Below are positions 10,736 to 19,607 of a DNA stretch of 20,405 bases, in pieces. Each line of letters opens with the position of its first letter. Positions within the stretch are counted from its first letter, which is position 1. The notes under the pieces are model-generated. The model worked only from the letters and a program-made list of their open reading frames with translations, was not told the origin of the DNA and searched no databases. A program made the translations under genes and the position numbers. Source of the DNA: a bacterium (GTDB taxonomy: Bacteria > Arandabacterota > Arandabacteria > Arandabacterales > Arandabacteraceae); assembly GCA_029933125.1 (NCBI GenBank), contig JAOZOU010000020.1, positions 1 to 20,405 on the forward strand, read 5' to 3'.

Positions 10736-11200
10736 GTGCAGTCTTTGATTGTAGCCATAATTGTTGTTGCACTTGATCAGCTAACCAAGTTTGCTGTTGT
10801 CAAAAGCATACCGATTCTAAGCCGTCAGCAAGTCATCGGTAACGCCCTTCGTTTTACCCACATAAGGAACTCGGGCGCGGTCTTTGGAATTATGCGAGGC
10901 GCAGGAACCTACTTTACATTTTTCTCAATTGTAGCTGCTGCCATTCTTGTCGTTGTCCTGTTTTTCGCCAAGAGATCATCAAGCCTTGTGAGGATCTCGC
11001 TCGGCCTGGTTCTTGGAGGAGCAATAGGCAACCTCATCGATCGCCTTCGCTTCGGAGCTGTGGTAGATTTCATTGATGTTGGCGTCGGTGAGACACTGAG
11101 GTGGCCTTGCTTCAATGCAGCAGATGCTGCAATAACCATCGGGGTTATCCTCCTGCTTCTCAATTCTCTCAGAGTCTCGGGAAGAATAACATCCCAATGA
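10736..11200 (+). CDS. lspA: Lipoprotein signal peptidase (signal peptidase II)
   Basis: This membrane aspartyl protease cleaves prolipoproteins after Lgt has added diacylglycerol to the lipobox Cys. The 154-residue protein has four predicted membrane segments, a conserved early Asp in VALDQLTKFAV, the FTHIRNSGAVFGI block, GGAIGNLIDRLRFGAVVDFIDV and FNAADAAITIG. The conserved aspartates at 102, 111 and 130 are present, covering the catalytic dyad. The GTG start at 10736 gives a minimal N-terminus just before the first helix. The stop overlaps rluD by ATGA. Together with mltG downstream it links this cluster to envelope biogenesis. Confidence 0.96.
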   Translation: MQSLIVAIIVVALDQLTKFAVVKSIPILSRQQVIGNALRFTHIRNSGAVFGIMRGAGTYFTFFSIVAAAILVVVLFFAKRSSSLVRISLGLVLGGAIGNLIDRLRFGAVVDFIDVGVGETLRWPCFNAADAAITIGVILLLLNSLRVSGRITSQ

Positions 11201-12150
11201 GGAAATTTCATCTCGTAGCTAAATCGGGAGGCAAGAGGCTTGATAGGTATCTGAGTGAGGAGGAGAAGGTTCTGACAAGATCTCAGATTCAGCGCTTGAT
11301 AAAATCCGGTTCAATCCTCGTTGATGGTAAACCACGCAAGCCAAGTTACAAGCTTAAGGGTGGTGAGACCTTAGTCATAAACATTCCGGATCCCGAGCCA
11401 ACCCATCTTTTGCCTGAGAGGATCCCTCTAGATGTGGTGTATGAAGATGAATTCCTTGTCGTTGTGAACAAGCCACCTGGTATGGTTGTCCATCCTGGAA
11501 GCGGTGTCCACAGCGGAACCCTCGTCAATGCACTGCTTGCCTATTGCAAGGATCTAAGTGGAATCGGCGGTTATCTTCGCCCAGGCATCGTCCACAGACT
11601 TGATAAGGGAACATCCGGACTTATCATTGTTGCCAAGAACGATGTAGCCCATGTCAGGCTTTGTGACGCTCTCAAGCGGCGTGAAATAGAAAGAGAGTAT
11701 GAAGCCGTTGTTTGGGGAAAGCCACCTCGCCAGGGTAAAGTCGAGACCCTTCTTGGTAGAAGCCTTACCGATCGCAAGCGGATGGCTGTGAGGAAGAGGG
11801 ATGGACGCCTGGCAGTAACCTATTTTGAGGTCGTCGAGGAGTTTGCCTTTGCCAGTAGACTCCATGTTAGGCTTGCAACGGGACGCACTCATCAGATAAG
11901 GGTACATCTTGCCCATATCGGTCATCCTGTCTTCGGTGATCCAACCTATGGTGGAAGACGTCGTAAGTATGGAAATCTGAAGCCCGAGGTGATGCGCAAA
12001 GCAAGGGAGTGTCTGAGTCTAATCGATCGCCAGGCACTCCATGCTCGAAAACTTATCTTTACTCATCCCATGACACGGTCTAAAATAAGTCTGGAAGTGA
12101 CAGTGCCACAAGATATGAAGGCATTGATTGAAGCTCTGAGGCGGGTTTAA
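11197..12150 (+). CDS. rluD: RluA/RluD-family 23S rRNA pseudouridine synthase
   Basis: The enzyme isomerises uridines to pseudouridine in 23S rRNA; RluD modifies helix 69. The 317 residues hold an N-terminal S4 RNA-binding domain (about 13-60, RLDRYLSEEEKVLTRSQIQ and SGSILVDGKPRKPSYKLKGG), then the catalytic domain with VVNKPPGMVVHPG and GIVHRLDKGTSGL, where Asp136 is the nucleophile. RLATGRTHQIRVHLAHIGHPVFGD and RQALHARKLIFTHP are the other family motifs. The start ATG 11197 overlaps the lspA stop by ATGA; the frame is open further upstream inside lspA but that is shadow sequence. The assignment to RluD rather than another RluA-family member is by overall resemblance and by the common lspA-rluD order. 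Confidence 0.93.
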   Translation: MRKFHLVAKSGGKRLDRYLSEEEKVLTRSQIQRLIKSGSILVDGKPRKPSYKLKGGETLVINIPDPEPTHLLPERIPLDVVYEDEFLVVVNKPPGMVVHPGSGVHSGTLVNALLAYCKDLSGIGGYLRPGIVHRLDKGTSGLIIVAKNDVAHVRLCDALKRREIEREYEAVVWGKPPRQGKVETLLGRSLTDRKRMAVRKRDGRLAVTYFEVVEEFAFASRLHVRLATGRTHQIRVHLAHIGHPVFGDPTYGGRRRKYGNLKPEVMRKARECLSLIDRQALHARKLIFTHPMTRSKISLEVTVPQDMKALIEALRRV

Positions 12151-12166: not shown

Positions 12167-12514
12167 GTGAAGATCAAGATCAGAAAGACGGATTCTGTGG
12201 CTATTATCGATCTTTCCGGAAAACTTATGGGTGGTCCCGATGCTGATGTTTTTAAGGAAACCATCAAGAAGCTTATAGCCGAGGGCTACAAGAACGTTCT
12301 TGTGAATATGGCGCACGTCCCTTGGGTCAATAGTACAGGCTTGGGAATTCTAATTGCAGGCTACACCACACTCAAGCGTGAAGGTGGCACTCTCAAGCTA
12401 ACGCACGTTACCGATCGCATTGAGAGCATATTGATGATAACCAAGCTGGGAACCATCTTTGAGACCTACAGTGACGAAGAAGAGGCTCTCAAAAGCTTCG
12501 AATCCAAAAAGTAG
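12167..12514 (+). CDS. STAS-domain anti-sigma factor antagonist
   Basis: Proteins of the SpoIIAA/RsbV type bind an anti-sigma kinase when unphosphorylated, freeing the target. The 115 residues form one STAS domain: VAIIDLSGKLMGGPDADVF (11-29), KNVLVNMAHVPWVNSTGLGI (42-61) and a C-terminal helix with LGTIFETYSDEEEAL. Ser56 in VNSTGLG is the predicted phosphorylation site. The next gene, 18 nt downstream, begins with the matching HATPase anti-sigma kinase domain, so the two likely form a partner-switching pair. No sigma factor or phosphatase (PP2C/RsbU type) is in the window. Confidence 0.93.
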   Translation: MKIKIRKTDSVAIIDLSGKLMGGPDADVFKETIKKLIAEGYKNVLVNMAHVPWVNSTGLGILIAGYTTLKREGGTLKLTHVTDRIESILMITKLGTIFETYSDEEEALKSFESKK

Positions 12515-12532: not shown

Positions 12533-13360
12533 ATGCTTGAAGTAAGCCTTCCGAGCAGCATTGAATACCTCCCCCTTGTCGATACGGTCTGCCAGGCTTT
12601 TTGTTCGTGGGCTGGCTTGTCGAGCGAGGTTTCAAACGATATTTGCATGGCTGTAATTGAGGCTGCTACGAATGCTATCGTTCACGGAAATAAGTCAATC
12701 AGATCGAAGAAGATGCGGGCTGTCTTCAACAAAAGACAGAATGAGATAGTTGTCAAAGTGATTGACGAGGGTGAGGGATTCGATCCTGAGAAGGTACCTA
12801 GCCCTCTCGATGAGGATAACATCCTTAAGGAGAGCGGTCGTGGCATATACATTATGAGACAGGTCATGGATGAAGTGGAATTCGAATCCATCCCTGGCAA
12901 GGGAACCACCGTAACTCTGCTTAAGGCACTGGATACGACACCTAAGCGAATCCTTTGCATAGACTATGGTTCCAGGCGACTCGGGCTCGCTCTGAGCGAT
13001 GAGCTTGGTATCACAGCTCAGCCCTTCGGGAAGATAGAATCGCGTAATGCGGACGATGCGATTGAGGAGATTAGCAGGATTGTCAGCGAGAATGGGGTCG
13101 GCGAGATTGTGATTGGACTTCCTCTCACACTCAAAGGTGCAGCGGCGGAGGCAGCCTCCGGAGTTTTGGCTTTTGCAAGACAGCTTGGCAAGAGACTCGG
13201 CAAACCAGTTGTGACCTGGGATGAGAGGCTTTCCACCAAGCAGGGTGAGGAGGTACTCAAACGAGCTGGGTTGAGACGCAAGCGGCGCCGGCAGGTTGTT
13301 GATTCGGTTGCTGCAGCCATTGTGCTCCAGAGCTATCTTGATGCGAGAAGCACCAAGTGA
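12533..13360 (+). CDS. Anti-sigma kinase (RsbW-like HATPase) fused to RuvX/YqgF nuclease
   Basis: Two domains normally encoded by separate genes share one frame of 275 residues. Residues 1-132 are a HATPase_c_2 domain of the SpoIIAB/RsbW type: N-box EAATNAIVHGN (Glu43, Asn47), G1 DEGEGFDP (78-85), G2 ESGRGIYIMRQVMD (100-113) and closing strand GTTVTLLKAL. Residues 138-275 are a full RuvX/YqgF domain, a putative Holliday junction resolvase also tied to 16S rRNA maturation: ILCIDYGSRRLGLALSD with Asp144, IVIGLPLTLKG, TWDERLST with Glu231 and VVDSVAAAIVLQSYLD with Asp257. The linker DTTPK is about five residues, and no in-frame ATG, GTG or TTG falls between the domains; a CTG at 12929 is the only near-start. 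Both domains keep their active residues. The stop overlaps mltG by GTGA. The fusion could be real or could come from one lost stop/start; a sequencing error is possible. Confidence 0.88.
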   Translation: MLEVSLPSSIEYLPLVDTVCQAFCSWAGLSSEVSNDICMAVIEAATNAIVHGNKSIRSKKMRAVFNKRQNEIVVKVIDEGEGFDPEKVPSPLDEDNILKESGRGIYIMRQVMDEVEFESIPGKGTTVTLLKALDTTPKRILCIDYGSRRLGLALSDELGITAQPFGKIESRNADDAIEEISRIVSENGVGEIVIGLPLTLKGAAAEAASGVLAFARQLGKRLGKPVVTWDERLSTKQGEEVLKRAGLRRKRRRQVVDSVAAAIVLQSYLDARSTK

Positions 13361-14460
13361 GGCACACCCCGATGAGGCATCTTCTCAAAGATTCCATCAT
13401 CGTACTGGCGCTTTCCCTTCTCTGCATGCTTCTTATAGAGATTGTTTGTCAGGCACGCTATTTCCCATCTGATTATGTATTCGTAGTTGTAGAGCCAGGC
13501 ATGTCGTTTAACGAGATCGCAGAGCGCTTCTCATCGCATGGGCTTGTGAGCAACAAACCTCTCTTTATGCTACTTTCGAAGATCCTGGGGATCGAGAAGA
13601 AGGCAAGATCAGGACGCTACCGCTTCGAAGCCACAAGTGACATGATAGACATCCTACGTGCGCTTTACCATGGGGCAACATTTCGCGAGAAGATTGTGAT
13701 ATTGCCGGGTAAGACGATTGAGGATGTTGCACACATATTCAGTGAGAGGGCAGGTGTTGACTCGGTTGCTCTTGTCACGCTTGCCTATGACTCTTCCTTT
13801 GTTGCAAGTCTGGGGGTTCCATCGAGGTCGGCAGAGGGCTACCTCTTTCCTGATACCTACGAAGTCGAATGGAAGGAGAGACCAGAGACTATCATCTCGC
13901 AGATGGTCAAAGCTTTCTTCGATGCCTTTGATGATTCATTGAGGGCTAAGGCGAAACACATGGGCATGGGTCTCAACGAGATAGTAACCCTTGCATCCAT
14001 CATCGAGAAGGAAGCCATGCTAGACAGTGAGCGCCCTAAGATCTCAGCTGTATTTCACAACAGACTCAAGAGGAATATGAAGCTTCAGGCTGACCCAACA
14101 GTGCGCTATGCGCTTCGCAAATGGAGGGGTAGGCTTCTCTATGATGATCTCAAAGTTGACTCACCCTACAATACCTATTGTGTGAAGGGCTTACCTCCGA
14201 CTCCTATCTGCAGCCCCAGCCTTGCCTCCCTCGTTGCAGCTCTTTATCCCATGCCGGGTTCAGACGATCTCTACTTTGTTGCTCAAGGTGATGGCAGTCA
14301 TTACTTCTCAAAGACTGCACGAGAGCACTATCGTGCCAAGCAGCGCTACAAGCGCTATCTTCGCAAGCTCAAGGCTCAGATGGCTGCCGAGGCCAAGGCT
14401 CAAGAAAGCAATGTCAATAGTGAAAAAGGAGCTCAGGGTGGCACTCAAGTCAATCAATGA
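13357..14460 (+). CDS. mltG: Endolytic murein transglycosylase MltG
   Basis: MltG cuts nascent glycan strands at the inner membrane and sets their length. The 367-residue product has one N-terminal membrane helix (about 13-32), a LysM-like segment (VFVVVEPGMSFNEIAERF) and the YceG-type catalytic domain: VILPGKTIEDVAHIF, EGYLFPDTYEV, VTLASIIEKEA with the catalytic Glu217, VFHNRLKRNMKLQADPTVRYAL, SPYNTYCVKGLPPTPICSPS and YFVAQGDGSHYFSKT. GTG 13357 overlaps the stop of the ruvX fusion; ATG 13372 is an alternative five codons in. The last 40 residues are Lys/Ala/Gln-rich and look disordered. The ruvX-mltG neighbourhood is common in bacteria. The larE start lies inside its 3' end. Confidence 0.95.
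   Translation: MRHTPMRHLLKDSIIVLALSLLCMLLIEIVCQARYFPSDYVFVVVEPGMSFNEIAERFSSHGLVSNKPLFMLLSKILGIEKKARSGRYRFEATSDMIDILRALYHGATFREKIVILPGKTIEDVAHIFSERAGVDSVALVTLAYDSSFVASLGVPSRSAEGYLFPDTYEVEWKERPETIISQMVKAFFDAFDDSLRAKAKHMGMGLNEIVTLASIIEKEAMLDSERPKISAVFHNRLKRNMKLQADPTVRYALRKWRGRLLYDDLKVDSPYNTYCVKGLPPTPICSPSLASLVAALYPMPGSDDLYFVAQGDGSHYFSKTAREHYRAKQRYKRYLRKLKAQMAAEAKAQESNVNSEKGAQGGTQVNQ
14426..14431 (+). promoter_or_regulatory. Ribosome-binding site deciding the larE start
   Basis: AAGGAG ends 6 nt before GTG 14438. It favours that start over ATG 14411 and GTG 14420, which lie in the same frame but have no comparable site. Confidence 0.65.
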
Positions 14461-15340: not shown

Positions 15341-15583
15341 ATGGCAACTAAGAAATCAAAAAAGGCACGTGCCCGTAGAAACTTGGTGGTTTTCGGAGAA
15401 CGCAATGTTCTGCTCCTCATGGCTGGCTTGATAGTGATCTTGATTGGTTATTTACTTCTTGGCAGGGGGAGCATTACAGCTGCTCCGATCTTGCTTGTGC
15501 TTGGCTATTGCGTGATGGTTCCCCTCTCAATAATTCTCTGGACGAAACAGTCCAAGGACAAAGAGCCAAGGTCGGGCGAATAG
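15341..15583 (+). CDS. Small two-helix membrane protein (DUF3098-like)
   Basis: An 80-residue protein with a very basic N-terminus (MATKKSKKARARRN), then two hydrophobic helices (about 25-40 and 47-66, VLLLMAGLIVILIGYLLL and APILLVLGYCVMVPLSIIL) and a charged tail. The pattern resembles DUF3098 family proteins, which are of unknown function. The N-terminal charge predicts a cytosolic N-terminus and a hairpin in the membrane. The stop TAG is at 15581-15583, inside tRNA-Val, so the last two codons (Gly, Glu) and the stop are also the tRNA acceptor stem and position 8-10 region. AGGTG lies about 7 nt before ATG 15341. Confidence 0.75.
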   Translation: MATKKSKKARARRNLVVFGERNVLLLMAGLIVILIGYLLLGRGSITAAPILLVLGYCVMVPLSIILWTKQSKDKEPRSGE

Positions 15584-15649
15584 CTCAGGGGTTAGAGCAC
15601 CTGCCTTACAAGCAGGGGGTCAGAGGTTCAAATCCTCTTTCGCCCACCA
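15574..15649 (+). tRNA. tRNA-Val (anticodon UAC)
   Basis: The cloverleaf is complete: acceptor GGGCGAA/TTCGCCC, D arm GCTC-AGGGGTTA-GAGC, anticodon stem CCTGC/GCAGG with loop CTTACAA (anticodon TAC at 15607-15609), T arm AGAGG-TTCAAAT-CCTCT, discriminator A and encoded CCA (15647-15649). Its first 10 bases overlap the upstream coding sequence. It probably sits within a longer transcript, since the foldase gene begins 28 nt later. Confidence 0.98.
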
Positions 15650-15677: not shown

Positions 15678-17360
15678 ATGAGATATTTCGTCGCAGTGCT
15701 CCTGGTATTGATTGTCTCCTCGATGTGTTTGGCAGGCGAGAATGTCGATCCCAATGCGAAGCTTGCAGAGTGGAAGGGTGGGGGCATCACTGTCGGAGAA
15801 TACATGAAGTGGTGGCAAAGAATGAAGCCCGAAGGGCGTCCCGAGCTCAGGACTCTCGAGCAGAAGAAGCAATTTCTGGAGAGGATGATTGACGCCTACC
15901 TCATGCTGGCTGCAGCTGAGAGTCTTGGGATTGACAAGTTTCCTAACGTTGAGGAGTGGATTAGACGCCGTAGAGTTGGGGAACTAGAGAATGCCCTGAA
16001 TGCCAGAGCAACAAAAGGAAGGGTGCATGTAGATTCCAGTGAAGTCGAGCAGCTCTACAAGAAGAGGCTTACCCAGATCACAGCCCGCCACATAGTTGTG
16101 GGAACCTATGAACTTGCTGAAGCATTGCTTGATTCAATAAAAGCTGGGGTCCCATTTGAGGATCTCGCAACTCGCTATTCAAAGGACCCTTCTGCTGCAA
16201 GGGGCGGCTATGTGGGTACAGTAAGGTGGGGAGATTTTTCTGATCGGTGGTGTGAGCATGCCTTTGCGCTCGAGCCAAAGGAAGTTTCGGAACCCTTCAT
16301 GGTTGAAGGAGGCTATGCAATAATAAAGGTTGAGGCTAAGAACACAATGGAACCGGAGAATCCCGAGGCCGAGAGGAAGAGAATCTATAATTACCTATAC
16401 AAGCAGAAGTACTTCTCAGAGCTCCAGGCATTCCGCGACTCATTGAGGCTTGCTTATCAGGTTGACCTTGATGAGCATGCCGTGATTGATCTTGCTGCGC
16501 GCTTTGCGAAGAAGATGCAAGAGATGGGTCTCACAAGCACTGTGATCGATGCTGACGTCGTGCCTGATCTGTCTGAAGCAAAGCGCAAGACACCTATCGT
16601 CACTTTCAGGGGGGGCTCCATGACCTATGGTGAAGTGGTGGATCTCATCCTGGCTCAACCTTTTCCGGTTAGACCACATCTTGATAATCCCGATGAACTT
16701 ATGACATTCATTTCTCGCAATCTTGTTGACACCCTTTCAGTCATGGAGGCTGTGAAACTCGGGCTTGACAAGATTCCAGAGGTGAGCACTCCCATTGAGA
16801 AGGTCAAGCAGAAGCGCATGATCCAGGCTTTCTATCGCTACATTACCAAGGATGTTGATGTGCCTGAAGACAGCCTCCGCGCCTATTTCCAAGCCCATGT
16901 TAACGATTACATAACCGAACCTGGATATGTGGCTTCGAAGATAGTTGTTGGAACTAAAGAGGCTGCAGATTCCGTTATGATGCGACTAGAGGCAGGGGAA
17001 GCATTTGAAGATATTGCCCGTGAACGCTCACGTGACCCATTTACTGCTCCCTACGGAGGCGATATGGGCTTCACCCCTCTTGGTAAGGATACTGAGTTTG
17101 ATGGTTTCGTTGCACAAATGAGTCCCGGGGATAAGCGCATTTTCAGAAGCCTGGAAGGCTACGTTGTTCTCTGGCTGAGGGAGAAGCGGGAAAGCCATAT
17201 CCCAACATTCGAGGAAGCCAAGCACAGGGTGCGGACAGATCTTCTGCCTTCCTATAAGGATCAGGTACTTGCCTCATGGATAGCAAAGCGGCGACAGGAG
17301 GTTGGAGTTAGGATCGACGAGGACTTGCTCTCGCGTCTCGAGGTTACTTCTTCTCGGTGA
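15678..17360 (+). CDS. Secreted double-parvulin peptidyl-prolyl isomerase (SurA/PpiC-like)
   Basis: Such proteins assist folding of exported proteins in the periplasm or envelope. The 560 residues begin with a signal peptide (MRYFVAVLLVLIVSSMCLAG, likely cut after Ala19). A SurA-N-like helical region with RTLEQKKQFLERMIDAYLML comes next. Two parvulin domains follow: about 134-220 (ITARHIVVGTYE, FEDLATRYSKDPSAARGG, EVSEPFMVEGGYAIIKVE) and about 417-503 (YVASKIVVGTKE, FEDIARERSRDPFTAPYGGD, SLEGYVVLWLREK). A second helical segment lies between them. Start ATG 15678 is preferred over GTG 15669 and 15672 because GAGGTGG (15666-15672) is 5 nt upstream. It overlaps the 3' end of the opposing sulfatase-fold gene by 17 bp. 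In this kind of genome its clients may be outer-membrane or secreted proteins like the last gene of the window; that is inference. Confidence 0.92.
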   Translation: MRYFVAVLLVLIVSSMCLAGENVDPNAKLAEWKGGGITVGEYMKWWQRMKPEGRPELRTLEQKKQFLERMIDAYLMLAAAESLGIDKFPNVEEWIRRRRVGELENALNARATKGRVHVDSSEVEQLYKKRLTQITARHIVVGTYELAEALLDSIKAGVPFEDLATRYSKDPSAARGGYVGTVRWGDFSDRWCEHAFALEPKEVSEPFMVEGGYAIIKVEAKNTMEPENPEAERKRIYNYLYKQKYFSELQAFRDSLRLAYQVDLDEHAVIDLAARFAKKMQEMGLTSTVIDADVVPDLSEAKRKTPIVTFRGGSMTYGEVVDLILAQPFPVRPHLDNPDELMTFISRNLVDTLSVMEAVKLGLDKIPEVSTPIEKVKQKRMIQAFYRYITKDVDVPEDSLRAYFQAHVNDYITEPGYVASKIVVGTKEAADSVMMRLEAGEAFEDIARERSRDPFTAPYGGDMGFTPLGKDTEFDGFVAQMSPGDKRIFRSLEGYVVLWLREKRESHIPTFEEAKHRVRTDLLPSYKDQVLASWIAKRRQEVGVRIDEDLLSRLEVTSSR

Positions 17361-19554
17361 GCCTTGAGAGGGCGTTTTTTGCCGGGGTGAAGTCGGGTTT
17401 TATTTTGAGGACTTTCTTGAGCAACTGGATGGATTCCTGGGTGTTGCCTTCCTGAGCTCTGATTGCGGCTAATCCGAAGAGTGCCATGTAGTTGTTGGGA
17501 TCTATCTGGAGTGCACTTTGGAATGCTTCAGCAGCCTGGCTGCTCATACCCTTTTGGCGATAGGCATTTCCCAGATTCTCTAGGATTTTGGGATCATCAG
17601 GAGCAACAGCTCTGGCCTTCTCCAGATAAGCCAGTGTGCTATCAGGATTTCCCATTTTGATATATATGGTGGCGATGTTTACGAGGGCTTTGAGATGCCC
17701 GGGATCCACTTTGAGGGTTTTGTGGAACCAGGTGAGAGCACTATCGACTCTATCCTGGGATAGGTAGAGAAGGCCGATGTTGAAGTGGGCTTTTGGGTCT
17801 TCAGGATCTACTTCGAGGGCTTTGTTGAAAAACAGCATGGCGCTATCGCTTTTACCCTTCTCAAAGAGGATGCTACCAATGTTGGAAAGCACTCCTGGTG
17901 TCTCAGGAAATAGATGCGCAGCAATGCGAAAGAACATGAGCGACTTGTCAAGGTCGTTCATCTCTCTGTAGATGACACCGAGCCTAAAGAAGCCCTGGGA
18001 GTAAGTTGAATCGATCTCTGTAGCCTTAAGAAATTGTTGGGCAGCACCTTCAAGATCGCCCATCTCCATAAGGGTTCTCCCCAGAAACATACGAGCCTGG
18101 ATGTTGTCTGGATCTATTTCAACCATCTGCGCGAAATCCTCACGAGCTTCTTCAAGTCTATGATGCACAAATGCGTCCATGCCACCACCAAAGTACTTCT
18201 CGACCGCAGCAATCATGTGTTTGGGATCTTTACCATGCGGCTCTATATCGGTAGGAATCTCAGCACGGGAAGCACTCACATATCCAAGTGCCCTGAGTTT
18301 GCGCTCCTCCTCAGGTGAAAGTTGGGCTCTCGAAATTGCAGCACGGTTTTCCTTGCTCACCACCAGTTTGAGGTTTTCCTTAAGCGCCCTGGCACGATCC
18401 TCTTCAGCAAGGTACAGGTTAGTTGTCTCATGGGGGTCTTCGGCGAGATTATACAGTTCAGGCTCGGGGGCAAGAATAAATTTCCATTTGTTGAATCTTA
18501 TTCCTCTTAAGGGACTCCACTTATAAGCCAGATAAGCGTAAAAGGTTTCCAGATAGTAGAACCTTGGCGGAAGCTTCTCCCCCTCAAGCAATGGGACAAG
18601 ACTCCTTCCGTCGAGATCATCGGGGGGGTTGACTCCAAGTAGATCGAGAAGGGTAGGAGTAACATCAACAAGACCAACTGTCTGTTCAATTGCAAGATGC
18701 TCAGGTATGCTGCCTCTTAAAGGGTGACTCCTGGGTAGATCGAGGAGAAAGGCAACCTTCATTGTGGATTCATACATTAGAATTCCGTGGGCACTCTCAT
18801 TATGCTCTCCAAGCCCCTCACCATGATCGGATACGATAACTATCATTGTGTGATCTTTGAGATTTCGTCTGGAAATCTCATCCAGCACTTTTCCAAATTC
18901 ATAGTCTGCATAGGCAATTTCGCCATCATAGGGGCTGGCTGTGTAGATGCTATCAAAAGGAGGTGGGGGTTCATAGGGAGTGTGGGGATCGTAATAATGT
19001 AAGAAACAGAAGAAAGGTTCCTTCACCTCGGTGAGCCACTTGACAGCTGCCTCGGTTATCTCCTTTCCTGGTCGTTGAGGGATCTCGAATGTCCAGAGAT
19101 CCTCCTTCCCCTTCACGTCATCGTTGTAAAGATCAAAGCCCTGATCCAATCCAAAACGAGAATCCAAAACAAAGGCAGAAACGAAGGCTGCAGTTGAATA
19201 ACCCTCTGCTTTAAGGATCTCTGCCAATGTAGTTATCTCATCGCCGAGGACGAAAGTGCTATTGTCTCTCACGCCGTGCCTGGTAGGATAAAGTCCGGTA
19301 AGAATGGTCGAGTGGGATGGAGCAGTGAGAGGCACACTGGTTACTGCATCCCTGAAGATTATACCCTCAGAGGCAATCCTATCGATATTGGGTGTATCAA
19401 TGTTGGGGTAGCCATAGCAGCCGAGGTGATCGGGTCGAGTTGTATCGAAGCTTACAAGGAGGAGATTGAAAGGCTTCTCCCTGTGACCCACGAGGATAAC
19501 CACGATGGCAACGATTGCTACACTGAAGAGTATCGTCAGTCGTAGAGCCTTCAT
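17344..19554 (-). CDS. Membrane-anchored sulfatase-fold hydrolase with C-terminal TPR array
   Basis: The 736-residue protein has an N-terminal membrane helix (5-23) and an alkaline-phosphatase-superfamily sulfatase domain (about 29-420): LLLVSFDTTRPDHLGCYGY with the metal-binding Asp37, PLTAPSHSTILTGLYPTRHGV, IVIVSDHGEGLGEHN and LVDVTPTLLDLLGV, with the closing block PELYNLAEDPHETTNL. The nucleophile position, Cys or Ser in C/SxPxR sulfatases, is Thr77 in TAPSH, so formylglycine formation is not possible. Thr is used by phosphoethanolamine and lipoteichoic-acid synthase relatives, so a phospho- or sulfo-transfer or hydrolysis on an envelope substrate is possible. Residues about 445-730 hold some seven or eight TPR repeats (e.g. 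AHFNIGLLYLSQDRVDSALT). ATG 19554 is preferred over GTG 19557. The gene is monocistronic here and its 3' end overlaps the foldase gene. Confidence 0.88.
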   Translation of the reverse strand: MKALRLTILFSVAIVAIVVILVGHREKPFNLLLVSFDTTRPDHLGCYGYPNIDTPNIDRIASEGIIFRDAVTSVPLTAPSHSTILTGLYPTRHGVRDNSTFVLGDEITTLAEILKAEGYSTAAFVSAFVLDSRFGLDQGFDLYNDDVKGKEDLWTFEIPQRPGKEITEAAVKWLTEVKEPFFCFLHYYDPHTPYEPPPPFDSIYTASPYDGEIAYADYEFGKVLDEISRRNLKDHTMIVIVSDHGEGLGEHNESAHGILMYESTMKVAFLLDLPRSHPLRGSIPEHLAIEQTVGLVDVTPTLLDLLGVNPPDDLDGRSLVPLLEGEKLPPRFYYLETFYAYLAYKWSPLRGIRFNKWKFILAPEPELYNLAEDPHETTNLYLAEEDRARALKENLKLVVSKENRAAISRAQLSPEEERKLRALGYVSASRAEIPTDIEPHGKDPKHMIAAVEKYFGGGMDAFVHHRLEEAREDFAQMVEIDPDNIQARMFLGRTLMEMGDLEGAAQQFLKATEIDSTYSQGFFRLGVIYREMNDLDKSLMFFRIAAHLFPETPGVLSNIGSILFEKGKSDSAMLFFNKALEVDPEDPKAHFNIGLLYLSQDRVDSALTWFHKTLKVDPGHLKALVNIATIYIKMGNPDSTLAYLEKARAVAPDDPKILENLGNAYRQKGMSSQAAEAFQSALQIDPNNYMALFGLAAIRAQEGNTQESIQLLKKVLKIKPDFTPAKNALSRLTEKK

Positions 19555-19607
19555 CACGCTTTCATGATATCGCCTCAGATAGCCTTAGTCAAATGGTCAA
19601 AAAAAAC

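Follow-up and report, generated by a model that had tools for sequence, protein, structure and literature searches.

In the window (the whole stretch of DNA analysed, 20,405 nucleotides), a gene joining an RsbW/SpoIIAB-type HATPase to RuvX lies between the genes for a STAS protein and for MltG. The features of this locus are the following:

11101 to 12150, + strand: RluD-type pseudouridine synthase gene, true start uncertain (Pfam S4 and PseudoU_synth_2, synteny)
12167 to 12514, + strand: STAS protein, 115 aa, GTG start (Pfam STAS, E 7e-15; RsbV/SpoIIAA alignment)
12533 to 13360, + strand: fused gene HATPase::RuvX, 275 aa, a single open frame with ATG start and TGA stop
12533 to 12928, + strand: HATPase_c_2 domain, residues 1-132 (Pfam; alignment with RsbW 6m36 and SpoIIAB 1til; Foldseek)
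12929 to 12946, + strand: linker, residues 133-138, free of ATG, GTG and TTG (alignment of the five fusions)
12947 to 13357, + strand: RuvX/YqgF domain, residues 139-275, carrying Asp144, Glu231 and Asp257 (Pfam, TIGR00250)
13357 to 14460, + strand: mltG (YceG) (Pfam YceG, E 2.5e-84; junction comparison)

Translation of the ORF at 12533-13360 gives, in one frame, an RsbW/SpoIIAB-type HATPase and a complete RuvX. Residues 7-130 match HATPase_c_2 (PF13581, E 7e-27, 94.5 bits against a gathering threshold of 27.4) and residues 139-270 match RuvX (PF03652, E 5e-40, 137.5 against 29.2), both matches being nearly full length, and the RuvX half also passes the corresponding equivalog cut-off (TIGR00250, 106.1 bits against 43.25). 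The N-box residues Glu43 and Asn47, together with the G1 (DEGEGFD) and G2 (GRGI) boxes, align with Bacillus subtilis RsbW, while Asp144, Glu231 and Asp257 are invariant across the five fused proteins known in the family and the RuvX proteins of Clostridia, the positions of these catalytic carboxylates matching the description of YqgF (PMC9601230). The domains are separated by about six residues, and the last in-frame ATG, GTG or TTG upstream of the RuvX half is codon 115, within the HATPase. Thus, the initial annotation, which had read two complete domains with their key residues in one frame, a start-free linker of about five residues and a STAS gene directly upstream, describes the locus correctly.

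The predicted structure of the fusion (pLDDT 79, pTM 0.51) finds its best Foldseek matches in SpoIIAB/RsbW (1til, 1l0o, 6m37) for the HATPase half and in 7ess and 1vhx for the RuvX half. Each fold of this two-domain model is credible, its domain arrangement not being confident at that pTM. A structure search against viral proteins gave single-domain RuvC-like and HATPase-like matches only.

The TGA stop of the fusion overlaps the GTG start of mltG (GTGA) in all five fused genomes, and a scan for promoters and terminators found sites no more numerous than in shuffled sequences. Elsewhere in the window there are a tmRNA gene (785-1136; tag peptide ANTTLAMAA), an ORF for a small membrane protein (15341-15583), the last bases of which overlap the 5' end of a tRNA-Val (TAC) gene at 15574-15649, and, on the minus strand beside the operon, a sulfatase with C-terminal TPR repeats (17344-19557), which is present in G004 as two tandem copies (L038 4447-8894).

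The STAS protein is more conserved than the fusion itself, since full-length copies in the genomes with the fused locus are 84-95% identical to that of the window. The codon of its Ser56 (12332-12334) lies inside an invariant NSTGLGIL motif, that is, a phosphorylatable serine in a constant N-S-T-G-L-G context. Because this motif is RsbV-like and the boxes of the HATPase are intact, the two proteins are likely a kinase-substrate pair, the pairing being deduced from gene order. The third component of a partner-switching module, a SpoIIE-type phosphatase, is missing from the window's operon, and four SpoIIE matches are found elsewhere in the same genome (G000).

The name "anti-sigma kinase", given to the HATPase at first, is not supported, and the suggested tie of a stress signal to the nuclease is hypothetical. 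The domain falls far below the equivalog cut-offs of spIIAB (65.5 bits against 135) and RsbW (58.2 against 145), a third score in this comparison being 51.3 against 155. Moreover, none of eight genomes of the clade has a SigB/F/G-type sigma factor over the TIGR02980 cut-off of 234.35, the best score in G000 being 137.7 bits; others, such as one on G000:C120, match TIGR02980 below the cut-off, and a sigma factor of another type could be the target. As a separate observation, a single STAS gene lies about 2.4 kb upstream of this genome's best sub-threshold SigB/F/G match (G000:C120:287996-291379), and the same STAS and sigma factor pair occurs in G001, G003 and G005. G000 also has a second partner-switching locus (G000:C176; L045 4411-5226), with a 272-aa frame containing STAS and HATPase_c_2 and overlapped by a separate STAS gene (L045 5199-5546); similar frames exist in G003 and G004 with a SpoIIE gene adjoining.

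The same two-domain architecture had been proposed as something to be sought in related genomes, and it was found there. All five genomes of the family that carry the locus (G000-G004, belonging to four genera) have the same uninterrupted fusion, the other four proteins being full length, stop-free and 61-73% identical to that of the window, whose own genome is 96.7% complete. A search of genome contigs returned one fused relative, L001, which is the record of G001. Between fused genomes, the HATPase halves are 60-75% and the RuvX halves 57-74% identical, the linker varying from 12 to 62% identity and by one residue in length. Since dN is 0.17-0.37 in both halves and dS is saturated or above 1 wherever computable, both the HATPase and the RuvX are under purifying selection, the saturation of dS meaning that dN/dS supports strong purifying selection only. 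The fused gene is the sole RuvX of each fused genome, including that of the window. A sixth genome of the family (G005, 73% complete) gave zero RuvX matches and so tells nothing about the fusion, and in G006, the nearest outgroup within the order, the contig stops inside the HATPase, so that the fusion cannot be dated from it.

For the spread of the fusion, 386 genomes taken outward from the window and 80 of the phylum of G032 were surveyed (about 464 in total). No full-length stop-free fusion appeared outside the window's family among the matches listed from these genomes, a survey that could overlook a fusion whose halves have diverged strongly and that leaves room for independent fusions in unsampled lineages. 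The fusion is a real and conserved domain architecture specific to this small family of uncultured bacteria. In the open-access literature, no report was found joining RuvX/YqgF with an RsbW-type kinase, nor RuvX with an anti-sigma factor fusion, which agrees with the earlier statement that no RsbW-RuvX fusion is known to be established. Both halves belong to well-known families; what seems new is their fusion and the wider, unreported synteny in which it is embedded.

This synteny is shared by several lineages, with the order ileS-dksA-lspA-rluD-STAS-HATPase-SpoIIE phosphatase-ruvX-mltG followed by a small membrane protein, and on either side of the interval between HATPase and ruvX it is constant across loci except for small local losses. 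Two genes divided by a stop and a start had been named as the finding that would speak against the fusion. Such an arrangement exists in G007 and in the lineage of G032, and is absent within the family. In G007, which belongs to another family of the same class, the HATPase ends with TAG, ruvX begins with GTG about 16 bases further on in a different frame, and STAS is lacking at this position. In family f28 of the G032 phylum, the HATPase is immediately upstream of ruvX in at least 30 of 38 genomes, and in six of them the two genes share a frame, with one TGA or TAA between them and an ATG or GTG within a few codons. In other families of this phylum, as well as in G106, G244 and G372, 2.5-4 kb separate the HATPase from ruvX, and this interval contained a SpoIIE-type phosphatase at each of the nine loci looked at, which come from several families; as far as their sequences extend, STAS precedes the HATPase and mltG follows ruvX. 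GAF domains are present in two of these intervals, which were scanned in full. The STAS-HATPase-SpoIIE module occupies the place between rluD and ruvX-mltG at L137, L138, L139, L141, L142, L146, L080, L081 and L082.

The separate genes outside the family are read as the ancestral state and do not refute the fusion. From these arrangements, the ORF of the window would be a derived fusion of neighbouring operon genes, the phosphatase probably having been lost first and the stop codon afterwards, with the direction of change (the phosphatase gene being lost here and not gained elsewhere) read from its spread among lineages and not from a rooted species tree. In the HATPase tree the deep forks are unresolved, and it is too weak to place the fused HATPases together with those encoded separately at this locus; because of this weak support, the orthology of both forms rests on gene order, and the tree was left out of the evidence.

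Taking all this together, we consider it probable that the gene is a lineage-specific fusion of old operon neighbours, the product of which, a single protein of about 30 kDa, most likely does two jobs. The ancestral layout would have been rluD-STAS-HATPase-SpoIIE phosphatase-ruvX-mltG, with a complete partner-switching module. Loss of the phosphatase gene from the operon would have brought the HATPase and ruvX to within a few bases of each other and, in the window's family, the stop codon and the start of ruvX would then have been lost, resulting in the single protein. Its N-terminal HATPase would bind the STAS protein encoded upstream and phosphorylate it at Ser56, and resetting of the STAS protein would depend on a SpoIIE-type phosphatase acting in trans from another locus. 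The C-terminal domain would act as the cell's only RuvX/YqgF, performing its usual work on rRNA precursors or branched nucleic acids; the activity reported for YqgF differs between species, having been described as pre-16S rRNA processing, RNase or junction resolution (PMC9601230). All eight genomes checked for RuvC have it, so that the fusion does not have to be the main resolvase. As direct effects, the joining of the two domains would bring their fixed 1:1 production and, possibly, dimer formation via the HATPase.

A further proposal, which we regard as rather unlikely, is that the fusion is a regulatory device, in which binding of the STAS protein or the ATP/ADP state of the HATPase switches RuvX, for instance through dimer formation. 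SpoIIAB and RsbW are dimers. According to titles cited in PMC9601230, the RuvX of Mycobacterium tuberculosis becomes a resolvase by dimerisation and its cleavage is stimulated by ATP; by analogy with these proteins, the fusion could force RuvX to form a dimer or, hypothetically, place it under the control of STAS. A linker of only about six residues keeps the domains close, the fusion has become fixed in the family and retains its two active sites intact, and STAS-HATPase stays beside ruvX in several higher taxa. However, the other neighbours in the operon (ileS, lspA, rluD, mltG and larE) perform unrelated housekeeping tasks, and long-lived adjacency by itself therefore says little about function. 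Furthermore, the sequence of the linker is poorly conserved, the structural model lacks a confident arrangement of its domains, and in other lineages HATPase and RuvX are separate proteins. It seems doubtful that the STAS/kinase pair directly controls RuvX within a single protein chain and in this way links rRNA maturation or the processing of junctions to a signal in the cell. If it did, the widespread gene order STAS-HATPase-(SpoIIE)-ruvX would be the mark of a RuvX-directed signalling pathway in many uncultured bacteria.

The frame could also be open and nevertheless yield separate proteins, if translation also began inside it (at Met108, Met112 or a non-standard start codon) or if the linker were cleaved. 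The codons of Met108 and Met112 are present in all five fused genomes, and the linker codons of G003 (L039) contain GGAGGTGGAGGA, possibly a relic of the ribosome-binding site of a once-separate ruvX. Nevertheless, both methionines sit in the G2 helix of the HATPase and neither is preceded by a strong Shine-Dalgarno sequence in the window, a RuvX initiated at either of them would keep about 30 HATPase residues, and the linker is devoid of ATG, GTG and TTG in the window, G002 and G004. In the window, no good candidate for a separate RuvX start was identified inside the frame, and we judge this explanation very improbable. As for an assembly or sequencing artefact that deleted a stop codon, all the genomes involved are fragmented draft assemblies, but the junction is open in five genomes with different nucleotides and linker lengths, so that the agreement of the four other family genomes with the window rules out such an indel, leaving the idea with practically no likelihood.

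The preferred reading, a two-job fusion of operon neighbours, bears on a protein about whose regulation, to our knowledge, little is known. RuvX/YqgF is essential in many bacteria, including Escherichia coli and M. tuberculosis (PMC9601230). A STAS-kinase(-phosphatase) module that is conserved beside ruvX in several lineages, and has led to a fused protein in one of them, makes an effect of the STAS state on RuvX activity a testable matter.

When compared with known systems, the window's HATPase resembles the RsbW/SpoIIAB kinases in its fold, in the Glu/Asn of the N-box, in the G1 and G2 boxes and in its association with an RsbV/SpoIIAA-like STAS gene. It differs from them in being fused to a nuclease, in scoring below their equivalog cut-offs, in belonging to an operon without a phosphatase gene, and in that its clade has no sigma factor over the SigB/F/G cut-off. 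The other half shares with RuvX/YqgF (TIGR00250, PF03652) the full-length domain, the Asp/Glu/Asp residues, the single copy and the adjoining mltG, whereas the 132-residue N-terminal HATPase was unseen elsewhere in the surveyed genomes. An analogous case is SypE of Vibrio fischeri, a serine kinase-REC-PP2C protein paired with the STAS protein SypA (PMC10120452). As here, an RsbW-like kinase is part of a multidomain protein with a single-domain STAS partner and a role outside canonical anti-sigma control (PMC10120452); the additional domains of SypE, in contrast, are REC and PP2C, and not a nuclease. Finally, the STAS-HATPase(-SpoIIE)-ruvX clusters of other lineages have the same order from ileS/dksA to mltG, but consist of separate genes, and this series of loci shows readably how the neighbours of an operon turn into one protein.
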